The notes beneath the pieces were generated by a model. It was given only the letters and a program-made list of their open reading frames with translations. It did not search any database and was not told the DNA's origin. The position numbers and the translations under genes are program-made. This document shows, one piece after another, positions 14,667 to 55,644 of a stretch of 64,000 nucleotides of DNA; position 1 is the stretch's first letter, and the number at the start of each line of letters is the position of its first letter. Source of the stretch: Antedon mediterranea (Eukaryota > Echinodermata > Crinoidea > Comatulida > Antedonidae); the NCBI RefSeq assembly GCF_964355755.1, contig NC_092679.1, forward strand, positions 4,836,001 through 4,900,000, in the 5' to 3' direction.

Positions 14667-17600
14667 TACTCTAGTAGCTAGATCAACTTGCGTATGCACT
14701 TTGAGGTCCAGAGAATTTGACTTCAGAAATTGGTTTAGGGTGGTCAAACAATCATTTTTGGCTTGGTTACACATTTTGAAAATGTGGCGAAAGGTCAAAA
14801 GGTCAGGGTGAAAGGTCATAAGACCAAACACCAATATGTCCTTAAATCTCAACAACCACTGGTCACAGCGAAGTAATTTTGGTCTCAAATTGATCAGAAG
14901 GTATACATTTATATTCAGTCTAATGGGACATTTTAGTCAAAAATAACCGGAAATGCCATTTCTGCCACACCTCAGGGCATGTATGTATCTCCGTAACTAC
15001 TGATTGTAGACACTTAAATTTGGTCTTAAATTGTTTGAAATAAATATTTATTATTTGTAGCACATTTTTAAAAATGTTACAAAAGGTCAAAGGGTCAAGG
15101 TCAAAGGTTATATGAACAAATGAAAATAGATACTTGTATCTCGGCAACCACTCGTCGCAGCAAGTCAATTTTAGTCTCAAAATGTTCAAAAGGCATGCTT
15201 TCATATTCAATCTAATGGGATATTTTAGTCAAAAATGATCAGAAATGCCATTTCTGACCTTTGACCCACATATCATGGCATCTTCATATCTCTGTAAGTA
15301 CTGGTCGTAGAAACTTAAATTTGGTATCAAATTGTTCGAAATATACATATTTACATTCATTGTAATAGAAAATGTGGTTAAAAGATGAACAGAAATACTA
15401 TTACTAATGTTTCAAACAAAAAACATATCTCTACATAACTTATCCTTAGACAGTAATGTTATGCAATATGATACTTTAAATTGTTTCAATTTCAAGTACT
15501 AGTTATTGCTGTCCCCAAGAACATTTTGATAGAAACGTCAAACTCAACAGTTCTTTTCAGAATGCTATAGAAGTAACATGCCATGTGTATCCGATTAAAC
15601 TCCCCGGGCATTTATTGTTCAAAGTGGTTTTTAGGGGCAGGGGAGGCATCTTTATTTGTGGTATTATATCGTAATATGTATAATCAAATAAATACCACCT
15701 AGATGTAAAAAAAAATACAGCACAATTAATATCAAAAAGTGAAAAAAATGCTTGGTAAATTGTAGATTATGGTAGTTAATGTAATGTGTTGTGATACAAT
15801 TATTGTGTAAATGCATGTGGCGGGCGTATTCCACATGGTGTTCTATTAGAGGGAATGGTGGCGTTTATTTGAGAGAGGCTTTTATTCAAAGCGGGTGTTA
15901 ATTCGAATAAATACTCTAATTTTAATAATTATGATTCGTTTCTCAACTGATAAAAGGTACTTTACATGATTCGTTTTCTTCTTTATGCTTTTTAACGAAA
16001 TGTTTCTGTCTTTTAGAATAAAAGTGACACTGTCATAGATAACATTAAATGGATGTTCTCTTCCAGGTGCCAGTATAATGATATAAAACAATGACATATC
16101 ATTATCCTGACACAATTGCACTCATAATGGATCTTCATTCTATCATCTGTTTGTTTGTGACTACAATTTGACAACAATCTTTTGCATATTTTTAAATGCC
16201 AATACATAGCTTCATTACTATTGTACAATATGTCCAGCTTTCCTGAAAACACCCTTGTGTACTGTAGTATAGTGTTGTAGTATGATTTTATCATGATAAC
16301 TTCTGATGCTTTTATTGTCAATGAATTCAGTACCTAAAACATGTCAACGTTTCTAGTGGTATTGATAATAAATCTCCAGAAACATATATTGTTTTATTAT
16401 CTACACTGGGAACAGACATGTATAATATACACCGACAAAACTTATACATATTATGTATAAGTTTTGTCGGTAAAATTCAAAAATATTATGAATGCAACAG
16501 TGTTACGGAATAATGACAATGAATTGGTCTATTATAGTTGTCTGTGATACCTTTTATTACATGATTGTACTTGCAACAGGATAGAATGAGGTTTAATCCA
16601 GTTATTATTCTTATTATATTAATTTTTTTTTTTCTGGGGTGTATTTATTTGATTATACATGTTACCATTATTACACCCAAACAAAATAAACGCCTTCACT
16701 GAATAACTAAATGCCCGGACCTTTTATTCGGGTAACTATAGTAAGTTACTTCTAGCATTCTTAACTGTTGAGCTCGAGTATTTATTCGAATTAACACCCG
16801 CTTTGAATAAAAGCCTCCATTCCCTCCAATAGAACATCATGTGGAATAAACGCTCCGCCACATGCATTTACAAAATAATTGTATCACAACACATTTCATT
16901 AATTACCATAATCTACAATTTACCAAGCATTTTGACATAATGTTATAATTTTTTTATATTTATTGTGCTGTATTTTTTTACATCTAGGTGGTATTTATTT
17001 GATTATACATGTTACCATATTATACCCCAAGTAAAGATGCCTCTCCCCTCCCCCTAAAAACCCCTTTGAACAATAAATGCCCGGGGCGTTTAATCGGATA
17101 CACATGGCAAGTTACTTCTAGCATTCTGAAAAGAACTGTTGAGCTTGACGTTTATATCAAAATGTTCTCGTGGACAGCAATAACTAGTAGGCCTACTTGA
17201 AATTGAAACAATTTAAAGTATCATATTGCATAACATTACTGTCTAAGGATAAGTTGTGTAGAGATATGTTTTTTGTTTGAAACATTGTAATAGTATTTTC
17301 TGTTCATCTTTTAACCACATTTTCTATTACAATGAATGTAAATATGTATATTTCGAACAATTTGATACCAAATTTAAGTTTCTACAACCAGTACTTACAG
17401 AGATATGAAGATGCCCTGGTATGTGGGTCAAAGGTCAGAAATGGCATTTCTGATCATTTTTTACTAAAATGCCCCATTAGACGGAATATAAATGCATGCC
17501 TTCTGAACATTTTGAGACCAAAATTGACTTGCTGCGACCAGTGGTTGCCGAGATACAAGTACCTTTATTTATTTGTTTATATAACCCTTGACCCTGACCC

Positions 17601-18035
17601 TTTGACCTTTTGTAACATTTTTCAAAATGTTTTTCAAATAACAAAATATATATTTCGAACAATTTAAAACCAAATTCAAGTGTCTACGACCAGTAGTTAC
17701 GGAGATAAATACATGCCCTGGGTTGTAGGTCAAAGGTCAGAAATGGCATTTCCGGTCATTTTAAACTAAAATGTCCCATTAGACTGAATATAAATGTATA
17801 CATTCTGATCAATTTGAGACCAAAATTACTTCGCTGTGACCAGTGGTTGTTCAGATTTAAGGACATATTGGTGTTTGGTCTTATGACCTTTCACCCTGAC
17901 CTTTTGACCTTTCGCCACATTTTCAAAATGTGTAACCAAGCCAAAAATGATTGTTTGACCACCCTAAACCAATTTCTGAAGTCAAATTCTCTGGACCTCA
18001 AAGTGCATACGAAAGTTGATCTAGCTACTAGAGTA
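14667..18035. mobile_element. Large foldback (long inverted repeat) element
   Basis: The left arm (about 14,667-15,917) and right arm (about 16,778-18,035) are reverse complements along roughly 1.25 kb. For example GAATTTGACTTCAG near 14,713 matches CTGAAGTCAAATTC near 17,978, and GGGTGTTAATTCGAATAAATA at the inner left end matches TATTTATTCGAATTAACACCC at the inner right. The arms contain diverged subrepeats with AAAGGTCAAAGGTCA-type words. The spacer is about 0.86 kb with no recognised protein. The element lies 0.4 kb downstream of the copy-1 stop and is absent from copy 2. Confidence 0.85.
16431..16471. repeat. Perfect 20-bp-arm hairpin in the foldback spacer
   Basis: ACCGACAAAACTTATACATA is followed by one base and then its exact reverse complement. 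It lies within the spacer of the 3.4 kb foldback element, near but not at its centre. It may be a cruciform or the fused ends of another small inverted element. Confidence 0.85.
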
Positions 18036-41701: not shown

Positions 41702-44700
41702 ATGGCTGCTGGTGTAAGTACCGTTTCTTAATTGATGAAAATCAATGTTTTAAATTTTAATCCGTTGAAATACCTAGATATCATATAGCTGAAAATAAAA
41801 TATAACATTTAATTAATATATTGTATACTTTATTTTGTATTTATATTTGCCAGACGCTGTACACCTACCCCGAAAACTTCAGGGCTTACAAAATCCAGAT
41901 TGCTGCAAAATACAGTGGTGCTGACGTAAAGGTTGTGCAAGATCCTCCAGCCTTCAAACTTGGAGAAACTAATAAATCTCCTGACTTTTTAAAAAAATTT
42001 CCTCTTGGAAAGGTAAATTGAATGTCTCTGTGTATCTAAATGTAGGATATAAAGTATAATGAATGTGAAAGTATTTTAATATAATATAAATAATATACTC
42101 TAGGCTAGGCCTCCTACTTTTTACTAGCTAGGCTAGGCTAGGCCTACTAGACCTAGCTAGTTAGGCCCCTAATAAATTATCACAACTTAAAAAAAAAATG
42201 TTTTATTGAACAAAGTGGATTCCAGCAGATTGATCAGAATCAACGCAATTAATTGGTCATGCATGCACATTTTTATAACTTCATGCCATGTACAACTACA
42301 AAGTTTCGCGCTAGTTCCATTTCGCACCTGTCATTTATTCAACTCAAAATTTGTTTTTAGTAACTTTATCGTGATTACCACACTTTAGAATTAGGCCTCA
42401 AAAATACTTTTACGATGGAGATCACACAAAAAGTAACAAATAAATCCTTTAAATTGATGAATTTATGCACTTGTCAATTGTATGACACACTATACGACCC
42501 CCGGGAGAGGTGCGTCATGGGTGCGTCATTTACAAATAATTACTGTCGCAGGGGTGCGTCAAAAAACCTAGATGGTACGTCACATCAATGAACAAGGTGT
42601 GTAAATGTCAGTCACTTTACCACCCATCATATCATAAACAACATGGTCACAGTGCGTCAAAATGGGTGCGTCATGGTCACCTAAAGGTAAGTCGCATTTT
42701 TGACGCACCGGTGCGTCATGGTATTCAAAGGTATGACGCACATCGGACAAATGACGCACCTCTCCCGGGGGTCGTATAGTGGGTCATACAATTGACAAGT
42801 GCATTACAGACGTGTTTCTCGCATATCGGTTTGTGAATTTCACGTTCAATGCTGTTGTTTCTATGGAGCGCCAAAAGAGCAATCATAATAGAGAGCTGAA
42901 AACTCAATATAATGCGTATATTTAATGCATTTATTGGTGAAAATTGCGTTCACTTTTAATATATTTTGTCAATGTCGATGCAACAAAACCCTAGGCCTAA
43001 ATCAGCATCACTACCTAGCCTACTAGGCCTCTAACTAAGACTAAGAGGAATATTATTTAGATCATTGAGGTATAAACCTACAGTACATGTAATATGATGA
43101 TGAATTTTCATTCTTTAACGAAAACTGCGAAAACCATGTACAGTATTAAGAATAACATTTTGTATTGACATTGACAAAATATATTAAAATTGAACGTAAT
43201 TTTCACCAATAAATGCATTAAATATACGCATTGAGTTTTCAGCCCTCTATAAGGATTGCTCTTTTGGCGCTCCATAGAAACAACAACATTGAACATGGCG
43301 TATTCGAAATTCACGAACCGATGTGCGAGAAACACGTCTGTAAATTCACTGTAAATTCATCAATTTAAAGGATTTATTTGTTACTTTTTGTGTGATCTCC
43401 TTCGTAAAAGTATTTTTGAGGCCTAATTCTAAGGTGTGGTACTCACGATAAAGTTACTAAACAAATGTCGAGTCTAAATAAATGACAGGTGCGAATTGGA
43501 ACTAGCGCTTAAAGTTTAACACCAATTTTTCCGACTGGTTGGCTGACTTGTAGTCTAGTGGTTTTGTATGTTCAATTCTCGATCAATTTTTTCCATTTTT
43601 TTGTATTCAAAAAAATGTCTTTTATTCACCATCGTCTTTATACATCATTGTCTTTACCAACCATTGCCTAGAGGGATGTTTTTTTTAGGTTTTAATTCTC
43701 AGTGTTAGTTTCTATCGGAATCTATTCAATGGTCAGTTGAGTTCCGGTGCCGGAATCCTAACCACAGCGTTTATTGAAAACCTCATTTTGTACTAGCAGC
43801 TGTGTGTTAAAATAAATACATAGGCTAGAGAGGCTAGGTAGTTAGGACTAACTAGCATATAGGCTTTTAGATAGAAAGAGTTTGTCAGCATGCCCAGAGC
43901 TATTGTTTTAGCCCCAGCCTTTAACTTATTTCACTATAGGCCTAGCTAGTCTTGATAAACTTGTTGCATCCATCGTTTTGCGCATGTGTATATGTTTTTG
44001 AACGTGCGCAGAATGTCAAATGATTTTCCGATGTAACTACAGGCCAACCTAGAAAACTTAATAAAAAGCAAATTTACTTTTGACAAAATTAGGTTCCAGC
44101 CTTTGAGGGAAACAATGGCACTCTACTCACAGAAGCCAATGCAATAGCTTTCTATGGTAAGTACAGGCTGGTATAAAGTAACATTTATATAACCTACAGT
44201 CGCGTGCGTGCAACGCGACTCGATAGCTCACTATGTCAGTAAATACTCAAATTTGCACAATTGGCCTTGTTGAAATAAAAAAGAATAAGGAAAGTCACAG
44301 TAACCTGTTAATTGGTTTGTAACTAAATTTCTCACCTTGTGCAGTTGCTAATGAGACGTTAAGAGGCAGCAATGTACAAGACCAAGCGCAGGTACAGATG
44401 TTTGTGAACTTGGCTGACAATGAGATCTTGCCCTCTGCATGTAACTGGGTTTTCCCAACCCTTGGCATCATGCAGTTCAACAAACAGGTTAGTAAATTTC
44501 TTTATTTCAAACATTTTTAAAGTGGTCCAACATTTTAACGTTAAATTCTTCCTTTTGTTGTTTTTTTATGCCAATAAATGATGACTTGTTTCGGGACGTA
44601 ATCCTGATTATTATTGATGAACGAATTACTGATATTGGCATTTCAACTCCTATATTTTTCCGGTAATCCTTGTGTTTCATGATTTGATTGACAGGAGTTC

Positions 44701-47700
44701 TTTAGGATAGATAGTTCTTTAATCTGGCTGCCGTTAATCCTTCTCATTCATTTTCCATGTCTACTGCCACTTCACAATGTAACAATCCTTTTACAATTTA
44801 AATCCATTTAAAGACCCCTTCCCTGCAATTTTGGACGTTTTTTAGAAAATAATACATATATATCACTTTAAAAATATTAAACCATGTCATTCCTTGTCTT
44901 AAATGTACGTTTTATGGTAAATTATGATAAAAAGTGAGAAACTATGCACTACCTAAGTAGCTCGCGGCGATCGACCTCTCGTGGACGGTCTTAGGCCTAG
45001 CCTAGCTAGGCTTAGTTTTGTAGGCCTAGCTGGTAAACATTGGTAACGTACGAACATCATACGCTAGCTATATACCTAGTCTGACTGTGTATAGTTGCTG
45101 CATTAATTGTCTTTCTATTTTTGCCAGACTCAGTTGATACAAATTGGGGAAAACCCGGTATTTTTGCTGAAAAGTTAAGAGTCTTCCATTTGTTTTGGCC
45201 TCACGATCGATCGAAAATTGGGCGAATTACAGGTGAAAAACAAAAATATCAATCCGCGCGCAATGCATTTTGGGATTTATAGTGGGCCGCTATAATTATT
45301 AGAATCGACTTATTTTTCACATTTTTAACCGTTTAAAGACGAAAAAAGTTATCGCGATAGGACCATATAGTATTATTTTTACATTAAATGTGACCCGATC
45401 TCGCAAAACCCTCTCTTTGTCGGCAATTCAAAATTCACGTAATCAGTCAAAATACGTCCAATTCGACTACCCTGGCAGATTACATGTTTTTGCATTTTCG
45501 AAATATTTCACTATTTAAGAATACGTATACCTGATTTAAACTCCCGAAATTTATTTAAAATTATGAAAAAAGAAAGTTTTAAAAACATGTATTTTCCTCA
45601 AGCCTAACAATTTATTCACGATCTACGCTAAAATTTTGCGTAAATTCAGTTGAAAGTTGCCGAGTTTGACGACATTTTGATCACCAGTTCGCTGCACAAT
45701 GTTGAAAGGTCACACATCAAAATAAAGCTCATCCATTTGACATTCCAAATATGGAAGTTTTAGGGCGGAGTTTAAAAAAGGAACCAATGAAATCTTTGAT
45801 TTACTATGACATAATTTCAGAAAATTCGGTTCTTCGAAGTTTCTGGAACAGCGAACTGCGTGTGTTGCTATGGCGCATCATCGCAATAACAAACGTTATT
45901 GGTCAACGCGCTAGATGTTATACGCTCTACGCGCGGAAATAAAAAGTTGTTTACATTTTGTGAGGTTATTTTCATTTTACACACAGCATGTCGTAAATTG
46001 GAATAAAAACGATTTTAATATTCAAAGTAAAGTGTTCGGCGTGTTCTGCAATAGCTGTAGCCTGTATTTGTTTATTCCATAGTAAAATAGACAAGTCAAA
46101 AACAATTCACGTCATAAATTCAATTGTATTTTCTATATTTTTTTGGGCTAGGCCTTAATTTTATTATGGTTGTAGGCCTACTACTACTGGGCCTAGCATT
46201 ATTGTCAATAATAGTTTTCTTTATACATTTTATATATCCAATCGGCTCTTAATTATTTATTTAATTTATTGTCCAGTCCATTCATATTAAATGTTTTTTT
46301 TAATCATTGGATTCAAGTCCAAAGATTACAGCGAATCTTCCACGTTATCAAAAAAATAAATGTATTAAATAGTCAATACAATGTTTGTAGCTAGCAAGTT
46401 GTGACTCTGCAAGGCGCCAAACTTGTCTAGGGGTCATTCCATCTCAGTTCACCCAAAAAAAATGGAATTTTAAACCCTACCTCTTCCAATTTTGATGAAA
46501 TTTGGTATATGGGTGATTCATAGCAATTAAAGCCAACATTTCAAATTTTAACTTTATCGGACCAACGGTTTTCGAGATATCGCAATTTCAATTTTCGGTT
46601 TTTACGCAAAAAAGCGCGCGGCCGCCACGTTTCAAAGAGCTGTATCTCGGGAACTATAGGTTCGATTTTAAAAACAAAGGTATTTTTGTAAAGGGGAGAC
46701 CATAAGGAACCTAAATATACTAATTGTGTTTGTTTTATGTTAATTTTAAGTTGAATAAAACTTTGACATATATTTTGACCTTGAAATTGACCCCGTGGAA
46801 CACGCCCGATTTGTTGGTGACTATCACGAAAAATGTAGCCCTACGTGTCAACTACAACATATAAAAAAATTGGAGGGGTTTTTTTCTTTGTTTCCATGAA
46901 ATTACAATTTGAAGTTGACATACCTCTTCCTTTTAGTGTATTTTTGGTGTTGTTATACTTATACACAGTGTGAACACTAACTGTTAAGGTGTCTTATTGT
47001 TACGCTTTCTCATCAGGCCCACTTAAACAGTAGATGTATTTTGATATGAGAAATACTGGGTAACTCACATACTTTTCAAATCAATTTTGACACATAGTTT
47101 AGTGTCCTTACTATGTTATTATGCACATTAACATATGCATAATAAGTGATTGCAGAGAACATACAACAGTTACTGTATATGCCTTTTTAAAGGTTGTCAT
47201 CCCCTATATAAAAACAAAACTACCAACCATGAAAAAAGTTCATTATTTCACAGATGGATGTGGCGGCCAATACAAAAACAAATATTACTTTATTAACCTT
47301 TGCCACTACCAGGAAGATTTTGGTTTAGACGCCGAGTGGAATTTTTTCGCTACATCACATGGCAAGAGTGCGTGTGATGGCATAGGTGGAACAGTTAAGA
47401 GGCTTGTCACTAAGAGAAGCTTACAGCGTTTGACTGAATGTCATATTATCACATCTCTCAGTATGTTCGACTACTGTGTAATTTTTTATTTCTATTTTAT
47501 GTCTTTAGGCAATGTGGCCAAGGATTATCAATAGTGAATTAGTCACTGTCCTATCAGATAGGTGGTAATCCCCCTGATACAGGGGCTATTGTGTGAACCA
47601 GTTCACCGGGGTAACCCCCTACTCTTTTTCGAATAATGAACTGGGTCCTTTAAAGTACACACATGTTATAACTGTGTACACTGGACTATGGTTTATAGTC

Positions 47701-50700
47701 CTTATCCGAGAAGACTTGAAGAGAGGAGCGAGTCGGCCTCGAACCCTTGCCGATGTTGTTGTCTTTTAGGTACGGTAAACGGCGCCCCTGCCTTAACCGC
47801 TCGGCCATATGACTCGCTCATATGGACATTCCAGGCATCAACTTTTTTCATGTGGGAATAGATGAGGTATCTACTGTAGAAAAAGAAATAAAGCCGAGAT
47901 TCAACCTCGCCCAGACCATCAAGGGTACATTACAATATCATCGCTTTGTTCCCGTTTCTCTGGCACAGATGCAGGTCTACAAACTTAGTACCCAGATAAA
48001 CCCTCCGGATGTGGTAGTGATTCAAGAATCTTTCAGTGATGAAAATGAAATTGTTGCTGATACACAACCCACCATTATTAGACTTCAGAATTTTGTGTGC
48101 TGTAGTTATGATGGTGTCCCATGGATTGGTTTGGTGGTGGATGTCTCACTCTCAGAAGAGTTTGGGGATTTTCAAATTAAATTTATGCATCCTCATGGGT
48201 CAGCGAAAACCTTTTATTGGCCGTCCAAAGAAGACTGTTGTTGGATTCCTGAATCAAATGTACATTGTATTATAGCCTCTCCGTTTATAAAATCCTCTCC
48301 GTTTATAAAATCCTCTTCGACTAGGAATTACAGTATTTCCCAAAATGATCGTCACAACATTTCTAAATACTGTTTGAATTGTCCAGATGACAAGGAGTAA
48401 AGGCCAGACATAGACAATTGTAACATTATAATAATATTTAGTTTGTAAATAAAATTAATTTTGGAATACATCAAATTGACATTGAAGTAATGCATGGACA
48501 GACACCAAAAATACACTAAAAGGAAGAGGTATGTCAACTTCAAATTGTAATTTCATGGAAACAAAGAAAAAAACCCCTCCAATTTTTGTATATGTTGTAG
48601 TTGACACGTAGGGCTACATTTTTCATGATAGTCACCAACAAAACGGGCGTGTTCCACGGGGTCAATTTCAAGGTCAAAATATATGTCAAAGTTTTATTCA
48701 ACTTAAAATTAACATAAAACACACACAATTAGTATATTTAGATTCCTTATGGTCTCCCCTTTACAAAAATACCTTTGCTTTTAAAATCGAACCTATAGTT
48801 CCCGAGATACAGCTCTTTGAAACGTGGCGGACGCGCCCTTTTTTGCGTAAAAACCGAAAATTGAAATTGCGATATCTTGAAAACCGTTGGTCCGATAAAG
48901 TTAAAATTTGAAATTTTGGCTTTAATTGCTATGAATCACCCATATACCAAATTTCATCAAAATTGGAAGAGGTAGGGTTTAACTCATTGGGTGATCTGAG
49001 ATGGAATGACCCCTAGGCTAGTTTACTACTAACGCCGGCCCAGTGTCGATGCACCGCTGCCATACACGGCAACCCATCAGTAAAGGCGATGAGGCGAAAA
49101 TCTGAATAGGCCTAGGCCTAGGCCTGCTTGGTTTTTCGCTGTTGATATCGTAAACACCTACGAAACCAGTTAAAATAAGCTTGACGTTATAATGCTGCTT
49201 TTCAATAGTGCAAAATAGTTAATTCGAGTGACTAAATAGGTTAAAACGGGGTCTGAAATCAGTCAAATTGACTATGATGTGCACGCTGCTATTATCGCAC
49301 ACACTTCCTGGTATGACGTCATTGTGCCTTAGACCAAAATACCGCGTTGCTACGGAGTGAGTTTTCAGCGCGTATCAAAAAGAATTTCATTGCAAACTTC
49401 AAACGCGATTTTCTCGTAAACTAATTGAATGATTTGTAAGTTTTTAAAATGTAATAACTTTTTAAATATTTACTCAATTTTTATGAAATTAACACCACTA
49501 CAAAGCTTATGATTAAAATAATCCAAATATGTAAAAAAATACAAAATGAATATTTCCGACAAAAGTAAGGTTTTGCCAGATCGGGTCACAAATATAGTTT
49601 GTGATCTTAAATTAGATCTAAAAAACGTAGGGAAGGGGGCTTTAATATTAGAGAGCTTTCTATTTGCGATGACCGCTCTGCGTCATGTAATTGCTGTGAT
49701 ATTGTGTCCTCGCTCCCACCTCAACACAATTTTCATAATTTCTAGGTCCCGACGACGAACGACAACTCATCCATTGTCATTGACCTGACCTAGTTGGTCA
49801 AATTAAAAACTCACTATTGAACGGAGAATAAAAATTGCAGTACCTAAAAAGTTGTATTTGTTACTAAGATTTTTATAAAATAATTTTTTTTTAAAGAACA
49901 CAGAGCGTGCCAAAGAGGAGCTTAAGAATGTGATGTTCTACCTTAATGAATACTTGACAACAAGGACATTCCTTGTAGGAGAACGTGTCACATTAGCTGA
50001 TATTGCTGTTGCCTGCAATCTGTTGATGCTCTACCAGAAAGTAAGACTTAATTCTTATCGCTAGTGAAAAATGTACCAACAAAATACATTGCAAATACAT
50101 AACTAAAAATATTACATTTTTAAAGAATTCATTCACATTTCTATCTTTTGCCAATAAATGATGACTTACTTCGGGACGTAATCCTGATTATAATTGATGA
50201 ACGAATTACTGATATTGGCATTTGGATAATTTTCTTGGGTTCTAGACCAAAACAAGCTTTATGTTAGCCCTGATTATAATTCTATAATTCTTTAAAAAGA
50301 TCATTAAATATTTAAGTAACTTGTTTTATCGAATAAATTCGTAAAATTATCTATTTTGATCAAATAACCAGAAAACTGCAATACAAATATTGTATGAACT
50401 TCTTCATATCATGGCAGGTGTTTGATCCCAGTTTCCGTCAGCCATATGGTAATGTTACCCGTTGGTTTGTCACAGTAGTCAACCAACCTGAAATTGTTGC
50501 GGTCATCGGCAAAGTAAGCCTTTGTGAAAAAATGGCTCAATTTGACGGTGAGTAATAAATAAGATTTATATGTTAGAAAGAGGAGCCTTCAGACATGATT
50601 TTATACAAAAGGTTTTGTTTAAAATAAAAAAAAGAAAGCCAGCAGATGATGACTTGTTTCGGGACGTAATACTGACACATTTTGATGAATGAACGTCTGA

Positions 50701-53700
50701 TGCTGGCATTTTTTTTTAAATATTTCATTTTAATGTAACATATTAGTTATCCACTTTGACAAAAAATTGGATAAGAAAAAATTGTAATTACCAGAAAAAA
50801 TGTAATTTAAAGCAAAAAATGGTCAAATTGGCTACCAGCTAATGGGTTTTTGGTTGAATTTAACCATATATTTTGTAATTTTATAAGTGAAAACATTATT
50901 TTTTTAAATTTTTTCTTCTATGGAAGTATTTTACACTTTTTGTCCATTTTTAATCCTAGTTGGTTTTTTTTTCTGAAAATTATATAGCATGCTACATAAA
51001 AATAAACAGGACTAGGGATTTTTTTTTATGTTCAATATTATTTGGTACTAATTATTATGGCATTTGAATACAGCAAAGAAGTTTGCTGAAATATCTGGAG
51101 GGGGAAAGAAAGCAGACCAAAAAAAAGAAAGAAAAGACAAGAAGCAAGAGAAGCCACCAAAGGAAAAGAAGGCAAAGAAAGAAGAACCAGAAGATGATGA
51201 TTCGGACATTGTTCCTCCAAAAGCAGACAAGAAAGATCCTTTTGCACACCTACCTAAAAGGTATCTGTAGCAACCTACCTATTCAGTTGACATGCTTTTG
51301 AAAACACACATTCATTTGTATCAAGTATTTAAAAAAATATGTGTATTTATTTTTTTAACTTTTAGCACGCTTGTGTTTGATGAATGGAAAAAAATGTTCA
51401 GTAATAATGACGCTTCAGTTTACATGCGATGGTTTTGGGAAAATGCAGAATTTGAAGGCTATTCCATTTGGCATGGTGATTACGATTATAACTCTGAACT
51501 TAAAATGACATTTATGGCTTCAAATTTGGTTACAGGTAAGTGACCATGAATGAGGGAAACTTTTAAACATGGAGTCTACTCCCTTGATAAATTCAGCTTA
51601 AATTGTTGAGATAAGCTTTTAATCAAATGAAGAAATAGTTCTTGAAAATGTTGTGAAGTTGCATCCTTACCATGCTAGCGTGAAGTGAAGGATGTCTATT
51701 TTGCTGGTAAAACAAATCATACATGCCATTTTTAGACGGTGGTTGTACAGTGTACAATGCAGTTAGTGTTCTAATCACGCTTCCCCAATCTTACGGAACT
51801 TGTAAATAGATATTGATTATTGTTTATATTTACAGGCATGTTTCAACGAGTTGATAAATTGGCAAAGAATGCTTTTGCTTCTGTTTGTGTAACTGGCGAA
51901 AACAATAATTGTCAAATATCGGGTGTCTGGATGTTCAGGGGTCAAGAATTGGCATTCAATGTAAGACCTCTTTTTAATTTTTTTTTTTTTATTTATTCAT
52001 TTAGCATCCATTTAATACATTTAAAATACATAACAAAGAAAAGACATAAGAAAGACATAATAAAAAATCACATATAAAATGTTACATATTGTTGTTTTAA
52101 ACCCATTTCATTGTATAATTGACCCAGGAGCTGACTAATTTTAATAGAATGTTGAATTAAATTTAGTTGTACATTACAATGTTTAGATTAGACATGGTCG
52201 TCATATGGCAACATTGCCTCTATATCAATTATCAGCATATGCAGCCTGCCTGGAAAAAGTTTTTTATCACAAACAATATAAAATAATAAATAGTTTTCGT
52301 TTGTGATTTATATGCTTCTTATTCACTCACGAAAACATTGCAACACACCACAAACGAACTACGTCGGCGGAATGTCCATTCAGCATGTTTGTTATTGTGC
52401 GATATTTTCATCTATACACATGCGCAGTTTGTTTGTTCGTAATTACAATTACTGCGCATGTCTATTCATAAAATAAATTCTCCTTTGTCAGCCACGTGTA
52501 CATTTACAGATAACGCGATTTACAACTACTCGTCTGTACAATAAATAAGCCTCCTAACGGAAAACTCGTTTTAATTTATTCGAGTGACGCTAAATAAATG
52601 TCATTGATAGCAAGTAACGCTACATCGCTGTCACTTATTATAGGCTGGCGGCGGCGAAGCCTAACTAAGCGGATGAAACTTGAGTTTTTAAGGGAAAATT
52701 ATTTTCGCAAGTTTTGTGAATGATATATTTTTTTTTTTCGCAAATTTACAACTCCAATCGCAATTTGCGAAATCGCGAATGGGTAGCGTGAGCATAGACA
52801 TAGGTCGGTGTATGTCAATATAGGTCGGTGTATGTCAACATAGGTCGGTGTATGTCAACATAGGTCGGTGTATGTCAACATAGGTCGGTGTATGTCAACA
52901 TAGGTCGGTGTATGTCAACATAGGTCGGTGTATGTCAACATAGGTCGGTGTATGTCAACATAGGTTGGTGATGTCAACATAGGTACCTACCAAAGCACTA
53001 CAATGCTGTTACGTTTTAAGTACGATGCCATTAAGATGCCACTAAGATCTACCACTGCCACAATTGACCAAAAATTGAATGTGGAAAGTATGGTAGTATG
53101 GATATTATACATACTGTATATTGCCTGCTTAGAGGTAAAATATAAAATTTGACATCCCCTAATGAAGAAATAAAATTCTCGAGCATAATATCATTCCCGA
53201 GTGGATGTCAAAAATTAATCATATATTTTACCAATATAAAAGGCAATATCTGTTATCGTATACTGTAGCCAACAACAAGTAAAATATTTACTGGGTCGGG
53301 TAGCTGGGCCTCCTTTATGTAATAAGCCTCCTGCCTATAGTTAGGCGTTGCATTTACCCTACCATGCGAAGAATAATATATAGATAATTAATGATTCCTT
53401 GGCAATAAAATATTCACTTAGGCCTAGGTTGTTTAAATAATAACAGAAGAATTTCCATCAATAAGCTTAAATTAATAATAATATTATTATCAGGTAGGCC
53501 GAATCTATATATAAATTTACGTAAGGGCAAAATTCGGTAAATCGCGCGTTACTTCTAGAATGTTTACTCGATGGTATATAAAGTTGGTTCGTACTGTCGG
53601 TACTGATTTTAACCACCTGATATAACCCTGTTTACTAATTAAATTGAGTTAGATCATTAGTTATTGACAATTAAAACAAATTTAGGTTCAACGATTTGCC

Positions 53701-55644
53701 CCAAATAGGGGTGTTTTCCGATCGTGGTATACACTGTCTAATGAAACTTTCTTGAAAAATACCCGCACACAATAATACGAGGATGCTTCGCATTTTCCTA
53801 TCTCTTCCTACGTTGTTGTTAATAGCTGAAAACCGGTTGAACAGCTCGAGTACAGCATCATAATGTTGAAGACAGACCGATTTTCTTTAAAAAATACTAT
53901 TTTGATATGTTTAATATACAGTATATACTGTAAATGTGTATACAAATGTATTGATTTGTGATGAATGGAACATTCAAAATTATTTGGTTTAACCATAGAG
54001 GTATATGCTTACCTCCATGGTTTAACACAAGTAGGTAAATTTATGGGCCCTTGGAGAATAAACATAGAATAGTACTGCAATGCTGTACAATACTGTAAAT
54101 AGGTATGAACCACTTTTGATCCTCATTTGAATCGAAAATTTCTACTGTGAGGGTTGATACTGTTAGATATAATATAAACAAATGTACAAATAAACTTTAT
54201 TACTGTGAGTGTGGGTAGGCCCTACTTTTTGATTATAAACACATAATATACAAATAAATAAACTTAATTACTGACAGTTGCTTTTCAACGTTTGTATTAA
54301 TTAATAATTAAAATATATATAAACGTTGTAGTGGTGTATCGTTACATGTACTTTTCTATTTCAATCTACTATGACAGTGAGAGTTTTAACAAAGTATTAA
54401 ATCGCAAATGTTTTACTGTATAGTGGTATATTATTATTAACAAAATATTACATTACTGATGGATAATAAGAATATATTTTAAAATTGTTCTTCTTTGTGC
54501 CTATCCTCTTCACCATCCCTCAACCCTAATGTTGCATATAAAATACAAATTGGATTTGTTTAAATGAGTCCAAATAATAAAATTGGACTCATTTTGTGAC
54601 AAGTTTCTCTCTCGGAAGTAATTCCCAGGGTGCTAATTTTGGTTGAGTACAAAAATCATTGTGTCTATTTATTTGTTTCTGTAAACGACAATGTATTATA
54701 GTCCTGCGGTACGTACAATGTGAAATCTCCATTTTTTCCTCGGTGGAATTACTGTGTATTCGAGAACCATCTGTGGGCACGACCTAGATCTAGTAAATAA
54801 TAATTTGTCTTCTTTGAGCGGAATCACCAGATGTTCAGTGCGCCACGCATACCAGGTTATATATACTGTGAGTATTGACCAATCACAAATGGACTTTTGT
54901 CACATCTATAGAGGGTGAATAACAAATGAGGGCGCTATGTATGCATATTTTAAACAGTTTTAGTTGATTAATTTCTTCAAGCAAAGTTATATGGCGCAGC
55001 GGGTAAAACGTATTGTGATGATGTGGAAAAATCGTAGCGACTTCAAGTCTCTGTAGATGACTTGTTTATTTATCGCCAAACGCGAGTGTTGCCACACGAA
55101 AATTACGCAGTTAATATCATCGTACTTGAGAATTACTGGATTTTATTTGTTTGACAGGGACACCATAATCGCGTGAAAATTACTCTTGTCAATTTTATTG
55201 TACTCGAAGAAATATACGATTTACGATCCTTGCAACAGTAGTTATGTGATGCAGTTTCAACCAATCGCGTTCACATATTTACATAGGCTATGTAATATAT
55301 ATATATATATATATATTTTGAACATTAGTATTTAATGAAGAGTTTTATATAATTAATAAAAAAATAAAAACATGGTAATAAATCTATAGATAGTAGTTCA
55401 ATAAAAGTGTAGTAGAATTAATTTGAAAGTTATTTAGATAAACAACAATAAAGAAATAGTTATAAGATTTTCTGTTAACTTGCAGTTAAATGACAACTGG
55501 AATATAGACTCTCCTTCATACACATGGAAGAAACTGGATATGACTCAGCAAGCCAACAAGGATATGGTTACTGAATATTTCTCAAGTGATAGAGGTGATA
55601 TGGTTGGTGGCAAAATTATAAAAGACATAAAAATCTTAAAGTAA
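41702..55644 (+). CDS. EEF1G: Translation elongation factor 1-gamma (complete, 10 exons)
   Basis: Exons: 41702-41713, 41854-42012, 44093-44156, 44345-44487, 49897-50040, 50418-50547, 51074-51260, 51366-51535, 51836-51960, 55486-55644. Joined length 1293 nt, 430 aa (human eEF1G is 437), phases consistent. The product is the structural gamma subunit of the eEF1B guanine-exchange complex that recharges eEF1A with GTP in the cytoplasm. Visible parts: N-terminal thioredoxin/GST-like half ([41 protein letters not shown]), GST C-terminal part ([40 protein letters not shown]), a Lys/Glu-rich linker (about aa 218-265), then the conserved EF1G domain starting [17 protein letters not shown], with [17 protein letters not shown] and [13 protein letters not shown]. 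The tiny first exon coding MAAG also fits known eEF1G gene structure. Introns 4-6 host snoRNAs. Confidence 0.97.
42298..43520. mobile_element. Foldback element in eEF1G intron 2
   Basis: Left-arm sequence (CGCGCTAGTTCC, AAAATACTTTTACGATGGAG, GCATTTATTGGTGAAAATT) recurs inverted in the right arm (about 43,165-43,513: AATTTTCACCAATAAATGCA, CTCCTTCGTAAAAGTATTTT, GGAACTAGCGC). Arms are about 330-350 bp once a nested MITE in the left arm is removed. The centre is about 43,000-43,130. No coding capacity. Confidence 0.8.
42469..42803. mobile_element. MITE nested in the left arm of the foldback
   Basis: Inverted ends TGCACTTGTCAATTGTATGA and its near-complement TCATACAATTGACAAGTGCA enclose further inverted sequence (CGACCCCCGGGAGAGGTGCG / ACGCACCTCTCCCGGGGGTCG) and several GGTGCGTCA repeats. 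It interrupts the left arm of the larger element, whose right arm lacks it. Confidence 0.85.
44569..44640 (+). ncRNA. Box C/D snoRNA in eEF1G intron 4 (18S guide, copy A)
   Basis: TGCCAAT/ATTGGCA forms the terminal stem. C box ATGATGA at 44578-44584, D' CTGA at 44604-44607, C' TTGATGA at 44614-44620 and D CTGA at 44629-44632 are in the right order. The 11 bases before D', GGGACGTAATC, are complementary to GATTACGTCCC near the 3' end of invertebrate 18S rRNA. The D'+5 rule puts 2'-O-methylation on the A before CGTCCC, which corresponds to the human site I recall as Am1678 (SNORD82/U82). The C'-D spacer is too short for a second guide. It lies about 80 bases from the donor, a typical intronic position. 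Confidence 0.88.
47121..47534 (+). pseudogene. Transposase-like fragment, N-terminal part
   Basis: Reads [20 protein letters not shown], then [20 protein letters not shown] and [13 protein letters not shown] recognise the 'TDGxxxQYKN...[20 protein letters not shown]' pattern from transposon-encoded proteins abundant in some invertebrate genomes. The two aspartates look like members of a DDE/RNase-H-type catalytic set, but I cannot name the superfamily. The frame ends shortly before a SINE and lacks an N-terminal domain, so it is not a complete protein. Confidence 0.65.
47540..47819 (-). mobile_element. tRNA-derived SINE splitting the transposase gene
   Basis: On the minus strand GAGTCATATGGCCGAGCGGT and TAAGGCAGG form a tRNA Leu/Ser-like A-box region, and CAAGGGTTCGAGGCC is the B box. 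The plus strand shows the shared central domain (GGTAACCCCCTACTCTTTT, CCTTTAAAGTACACAC, GGTTTATAGTCCTTATCCGA). It lies between two parts of a single transposase-like gene. Confidence 0.75.
47822..48400 (+). pseudogene. Transposase-like fragment, C-terminal part
   Basis: A 192-residue frame beginning [20 protein letters not shown], with [12 protein letters not shown] and, near the end, [15 protein letters not shown]. It follows the N-terminal fragment in the same orientation and is separated from it by the SINE. I infer the two were one gene (IPGINFFHV following the catalytic part is usual for this protein type). Its end lies just inside the right inverted repeat. Confidence 0.6.
50149..50220 (+). 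ncRNA. Box C/D snoRNA in eEF1G intron 5 (18S guide, copy B)
   Basis: Nearly identical to copy A: TGCCAAT/ATTGGCA stem, C box ATGATGA, guide GGGACGTAATC directly before D' CTGA, C' TTGATGA and D CTGA. It lies about 108 bases after the exon 5 donor. Same predicted 18S target. Confidence 0.88.
50638..50707 (+). ncRNA. Box C/D snoRNA in eEF1G intron 6 (18S guide, copy C)
   Basis: A seven-base-pair terminal stem GCCAGCA/TGCTGGC, C box ATGATGA (50646-50652), guide GGGACGTAAT one base before D' CTGA (50672-50675), C' TTGATGA (50682-50688) and D CTGA (50697-50700). Diverged from A and B everywhere except the boxes and guide, with compensatory change in the stem, which supports a selected RNA. Confidence 0.88.
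50715..50930. repeat. Dispersed AT-rich repeat (related to 58,360-58,930)
   Basis: Shares ordered words with 58,365-58,640 and 58,680-58,830: ATCCACTTTGACAAAAAATT, AATTTAAAGCAAAAAATGGTC, TTTGGTTGAATTT, GTGAAAACATT. Non-coding, family unknown. Confidence 0.55.
52801..52985. repeat. 20-bp tandem repeat, about nine copies (eEF1G intron 9)
   Basis: The unit TAGGTCGGTGTATGTCAACA repeats with almost no variation; the last copy is one base shorter with a G-to-T change. A homogeneous array of this kind is likely length-variable. Confidence 0.95.
53500..53990 (-). repeat. Second copy of the Helitron-associated repeat
   Basis: Matches 19,560-20,040 in the same orientation, including CGGTAAATCGCGCGTTA, GCCCCAAATAGGGGTGTTTT and the CACACAATAATACGAGGAT stretch. 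The helicase motif portion is not present here. Confidence 0.75.
54000..55485. other. Remainder of eEF1G intron 9
   Basis: No gene or recognised element. A (TA)n microsatellite sits at about 55,296-55,316. The exon 10 acceptor (TTAACTTGCAG) ends at 55,485. Confidence 0.5.

Follow-up and report, generated by a model that had tools for sequence, protein, structure and literature searches.

The locus raises the question of whether introns 4, 5 and 6 of the eEF1G gene each hold a working guide RNA, and of how such RNAs would relate to SNORD82, a guide known from a different host gene. The reading favoured here, drawn from the sequence, is that they are very probably three intronic SNORD82-type box C/D snoRNA genes, cotranscribed with eEF1G, directing a predicted methylation of 18S rRNA and copied from one another by duplication.

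The host gene and its three predicted intronic RNAs

The window, that is, the whole 64-kb stretch of DNA analysed, carries eEF1G on its forward strand. Exons 1-9, with GT-AG introns, splice together into a single open frame; the joined exons match Pfam EF1G at E=3.8e-42 as well as GST_N and GST_C, and among solved structures they match PDB 5dqs, "Elongation factor 1-gamma" (E=4.6e-90). The features concerned are as follows:

41702..55644, + strand: eEF1G host gene (coding exons 1-9 at 41702-51960, last exon at 55486-55644)
44488-49896, + strand: eEF1G intron 4, which holds copy A
44569..44640, + strand: copy A, predicted box C/D snoRNA with boxes and stem, eEF1G intron 4 (RF00158, 30.2 bits)
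44593..44602, + strand: D' guide GGGACGTAAT of copy A, its complement found in the own 18S
50041-50417, + strand: eEF1G intron 5, which holds copy B
50149..50220, + strand: copy B, predicted box C/D snoRNA, eEF1G intron 5 (RF00158, 31.2 bits; 69/72 positions as in A)
50173..50182, + strand: D' guide of copy B, the same GGGACGTAAT
50548-51073, + strand: eEF1G intron 6, which holds copy C
50637..50708, + strand: copy C, predicted box C/D snoRNA, eEF1G intron 6 (RF00158, 32.8 bits; 56/72 positions as in A; two compensated stem pairs)
50661..50670, + strand: D' guide of copy C, the same GGGACGTAAT

All copies are 72 nt long and lie on the sense strand of eEF1G, starting 81 (A), 108 (B) and 89 nt (C) from the 5' splice site and ending 5256, 197 and 365 nt, respectively, from the 3' splice site. 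Their order of parts is the same: a C box (ATGATGA), an 8-nt spacer, the guide, a single nucleotide and the D' box (CTGA), followed by 7 nt, the C' box (TGATGA), 8 nt and the D box (CTGA). A terminal stem of 7-8 bp encloses the whole and joins the C box (RUGAUGA) to the D box (CUGA) in 3/3 copies, and the internal C' and D' boxes are likewise present in all. No second guide before box D is proposed since the C'-D interval has only 8 nt, at 4/8 of which A and C are alike. The preliminary description of this DNA had placed one box C/D RNA in each of the three introns and had given them a common D' guide; its coordinates, boxes and stems were verified, and the guide is identical in 3/3 copies.

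Both strands of the 64 kb were scanned for an RTGATGA box and a CTGA box closed by a stem of at least 5 bp, which returned exactly three candidates, copies A, B and C, each with a 7-bp stem by the measure of the scan. In 200 simulated windows of matched dinucleotide content, candidates averaged 0.31 per window (maximum 3) with the 5-bp minimum and 0.055 (maximum 2) with a 7-bp minimum, the latter cut-off having been picked after the stems were seen. Short as the motifs are, a chance origin of the C/D-like sequences is rejected on these counts, and one guide complementary to the own 18S is common to all three; the probability left to chance is vanishingly small. In-register identity of the flanks of the copies is 49-66/200 positions on either side, and for any other 72-nt stretch of the window, aligned without gaps, identity is at most 37/72 to copy A and 35/72 to copy C.

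The guide and its predicted target in 18S rRNA

The genome was searched with a 35-place 18S pattern, one mismatch allowed, and seven places were returned, all on contig C2. Five match the 35-mer exactly and two have one mismatch outside the target; 7/7 hold GATTACGTCCC, the exact complement of the guide, which bears out the complementarity to 18S claimed earlier and supports the A before CGTCCC as the predicted target. Three of these places, fragments among them, were inspected. At least two (L012 and L014) have the 3' part of 18S joined upstream to other sequence, by eye partly retroelement-like, and none of those read was established as a complete active rDNA unit.

The guide pairs with 18S over 11 nt in A and B and over 10 nt in C, with a duplex energy of -17.0 to -18.8 kcal/mol. 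Complementarity alone is weak evidence because 23/2000 shuffled guides match that energy somewhere in a 1.2-kb rDNA stretch; the weight of the target case therefore comes from the anatomy, the identity across copies and the family match taken together. By the D'+5 rule, in which the target is the rRNA base pairing 5 nt upstream of D', 2'-O-methylation is predicted at the A of ATT[A]CGTCCC in 18S. We take this A to be equivalent to human 18S A1678 (Am1678). The preliminary description had SNORD82 guiding that site from another host gene, of which the parts on SNORD82 itself are borne out by passages of two sources: SNORD82 is listed with 18S-Am1678 (PMC12931454), and in chicken, U82/Z25 sits in intron 5 of NCL (PMC2653536).

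Likeness to SNORD82 and divergence among the copies

At gathering scores, the window has no match to Rfam. In a relaxed Rfam search of 43500-52500, SNORD82 (U82/Z25, RF00158) is the best family for 3/3 copies, with E values of 0.0015, 0.004 and 0.0077. The comparison with this model, proposed in the preliminary description, thus names the same family for each copy, but at 30-33 bits against a gathering score of 43 bits, which is short of curated membership. The family snoZ17 scores 24.6-30.0 bits on the copies, and much of the Rfam score reflects generic C/D architecture, as the sub-gathering scores and the matches to other C/D families indicate. When RF00158 was run against the whole genome, the copies were recovered at E 0.014-0.071; at E<=10 the model also has matches in 11/14 prokaryote control genomes, none above the cut-off.

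The copies resemble SNORD82 in their box order, in having a single D' guide and in the predicted 18S adenosine, the last by the equivalence that we presume. They also have the spacing of the Rfam consensus, with 8 nt from C box to guide and one nucleotide separating the guide from D'. The guide differs from the SNORD82 consensus guide GGGACUUAAU at one base, which is G in the copies and U in SNORD82, and this G pairs with the base in the own 18S. Vertebrate 18S reads ATTAAGTCCC there, as the Rfam consensus implies.

Among the copies, the differences per 72 positions are 3 for A-B, 16 for A-C and 19 for B-C. The 21 box positions and the 10 guide positions are free of differences; outside these, A and C differ at 16/41 positions and B and C at 19/41. 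With the number of changes outside the boxes taken as given, P for a guide free of change is 0.51 for A-B, 0.014 for A-C and 0.005 for B-C, comparisons that are not independent of one another. The selection on the guide proposed in the preliminary description agrees with the latter two values. The guide is, however, not the sole conserved piece, because the neighbouring 8-nt spacer on its C-box side is also the same in A and C (B has two changes in it). The statement that copy C had changed nearly everything else was too strong: copy C agrees with A at 56/72 positions, with the spacer intact.

The compensated stem described for copy C is real, as two pairs are altered on both sides (A-U to G-C and U-A to C-G); the outermost positions no longer pair. 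When the stem partners were slid by 1-3 columns, no pair was changed on both sides. With three sequences and 66/500 shuffles as good in the co-variation control, the compensation is only suggestive.

Origin of the copies and choice of host

The eEF1G trio are real, probably functional SNORD82-like snoRNA genes with a different host. Their expression, processing, methylation activity, mode of duplication and common ancestry with vertebrate SNORD82 are what we infer. Copies A-C would be transcribed together with eEF1G. Once spliced out and debranched, the introns would each be processed down to an RNA of 70-odd nt that associates with the C/D proteins; its D' guide would pair with 18S over 10 nt (over 11 nt in copies A and B) and direct the 2'-O-methylation of the predicted A. 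The copies most likely arose by cis-duplication within eEF1G, with copy C the most diverged.

Descent from vertebrate SNORD82 is the part of this account that a different history could replace. If the guide had evolved independently for the same 18S site, guide and boxes would be alike simply because function dictates them, and both the sub-threshold Rfam score and the closeness of snoZ17, just 2.8-6.6 bits under SNORD82 on each copy, would agree with this. The spacing on both sides of the guide, equal to that of the SNORD82 consensus, and the rank of SNORD82 as best family for every copy speak for common ancestry, and an independent origin is considered unlikely. The near-identity of A and B, which differ at 3/72 positions only, means that A or B may be young or converted, and it would suit a situation in which only some copies function and the rest, as snoRNA pseudogenes, owe their likeness to recent duplication or gene conversion. 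That situation appears improbable in view of the retention of boxes, guide and stem in all three copies, of the A-B flanks, which are identical at just 49/200 and 58/200 positions, and of the absence of any box or guide change in copy C, the most diverged. The SNORD82-type reading given at the outset is retained for all three copies.

With regard to the host, the passages of PMC2653536 that concern U82/Z25 give one copy in chicken, in NCL, whereas here there are three and the host is eEF1G; the host thus differs from the known one. The three copies found lie in eEF1G and not, like the chicken gene, within an intron of NCL; an NCL location is no formal criterion of RF00158, and NCL itself was not located in the assembly. 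In the open-licence literature searched, eEF1G was not found named as host of a SNORD82-type guide, which is a weak negative; for instance, eEF1 terms have no occurrence in the main text of PMC13228274. It is conceivable, though doubtful, that in this lineage a SNORD82 guide left its former host and was fixed and triplicated in eEF1G, with the guide matched to a different 18S base. If true, the guide would have switched host genes and co-evolved with its target, possibly with an increase in dosage.

The copying of snoRNAs among the introns of one gene and their movement between hosts are already established. According to passages of PMC2653536, almost all snoRNA paralogues of chicken stem from duplication within one gene; their guide regions are retained and much of the remaining sequence is variable, as is also seen in copies A-C. 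Similarly, the chicken U18a/b/c in introns 2, 5 and 6 of RPL4 and U14 in introns 5, 6 and 8 of HSPA8 present one guide RNA in several introns of one gene, both sets differing from copies A-C in guide and host (PMC2653536, in the same passages). PMC3511168 makes the case for a "constrained drift" model, in which snoRNAs pass between introns of broadly expressed host genes; the eEF1G trio fits this model. In zebrafish, eef1g has both TOP-type and canonical starts and the human homologue uses the TOP-type; such starts are linked to snoRNA host genes, and no eef1g-hosted snoRNA is stated in the passages of that source (PMC6954239). The trio adds a case in which a SNORD82-like guide is hosted by a translation-factor gene instead of NCL and fits the 18S base of its own genome; the general understanding of snoRNAs is left unchanged.

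Further copies were sought in the 354-Mb assembly of 18 contigs with the Rfam model, a 24-place pattern (up to 3 mismatches), a gapped C-box/guide/D' pattern, the guide and D' alone, the same gapped pattern left free at the Rfam-divergent position and, in a DNA search, the sequence of copy C. No fourth copy with the anatomy of A-C was found by these model, pattern and DNA searches. The DNA search was not exhaustive, as it returned copies C and A and missed B, so an absent match in it does not amount to absence. Six other places were returned, namely, L004, L005 and L006 by the Rfam model, L010 and L011 by the 24-place pattern and L018 by the guide and D'. These were rejected as copies: an RTGATG...CTGA pair at snoRNA distance occurs within the 400 nt around 0/6 of them versus 3/3 of the eEF1G copies.

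A partial eEF1G paralogue lies 2.1 Mb away on the reverse strand (contig C10:7018099-7020049), with pieces like exons 2, 4, 9 and 10, of which exon 4 has 94% DNA identity over 162 nt. Within 20 kb around it, exons 1, 3 and 5-8 were not found, the guide sequence GGGACGTAA is absent from both strands, and one C-box/D-box pattern occurs without the guide.

In intron 4, a transposon-like insertion fills ~2.6 kb of the 5.4 kb. This DNA-transposon-like element (46419-49024) has inverted repeats of 481 nt, 98% complementary, which enclose two stop-to-stop frames (143 aa and 195 aa); neither the 195-aa frame nor 104 aa of the 143-aa frame matches Pfam at E 0.001. Between the two frames, near 47,700-47,820, a SINE-like, tRNA-like stretch was noted by eye, and ARAGORN called no tRNA gene in the window, this stretch included. 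An outer inverted pair (45389-45427 and 49552-49590; 39 nt, 85%), beginning TGTGACCCGATC, suggests that the element of intron 4 is nested inside another element. Downstream of exon 9, a tandem array with a 20-bp unit, ACATAGGTCGGTGTATGTCA, occupies 52778-52977. Elsewhere in the window, at 14667-18035, there is a cluster of nested inverted repeats, including one of 349 nt at 93% and one of 298 nt at 98% complementarity.
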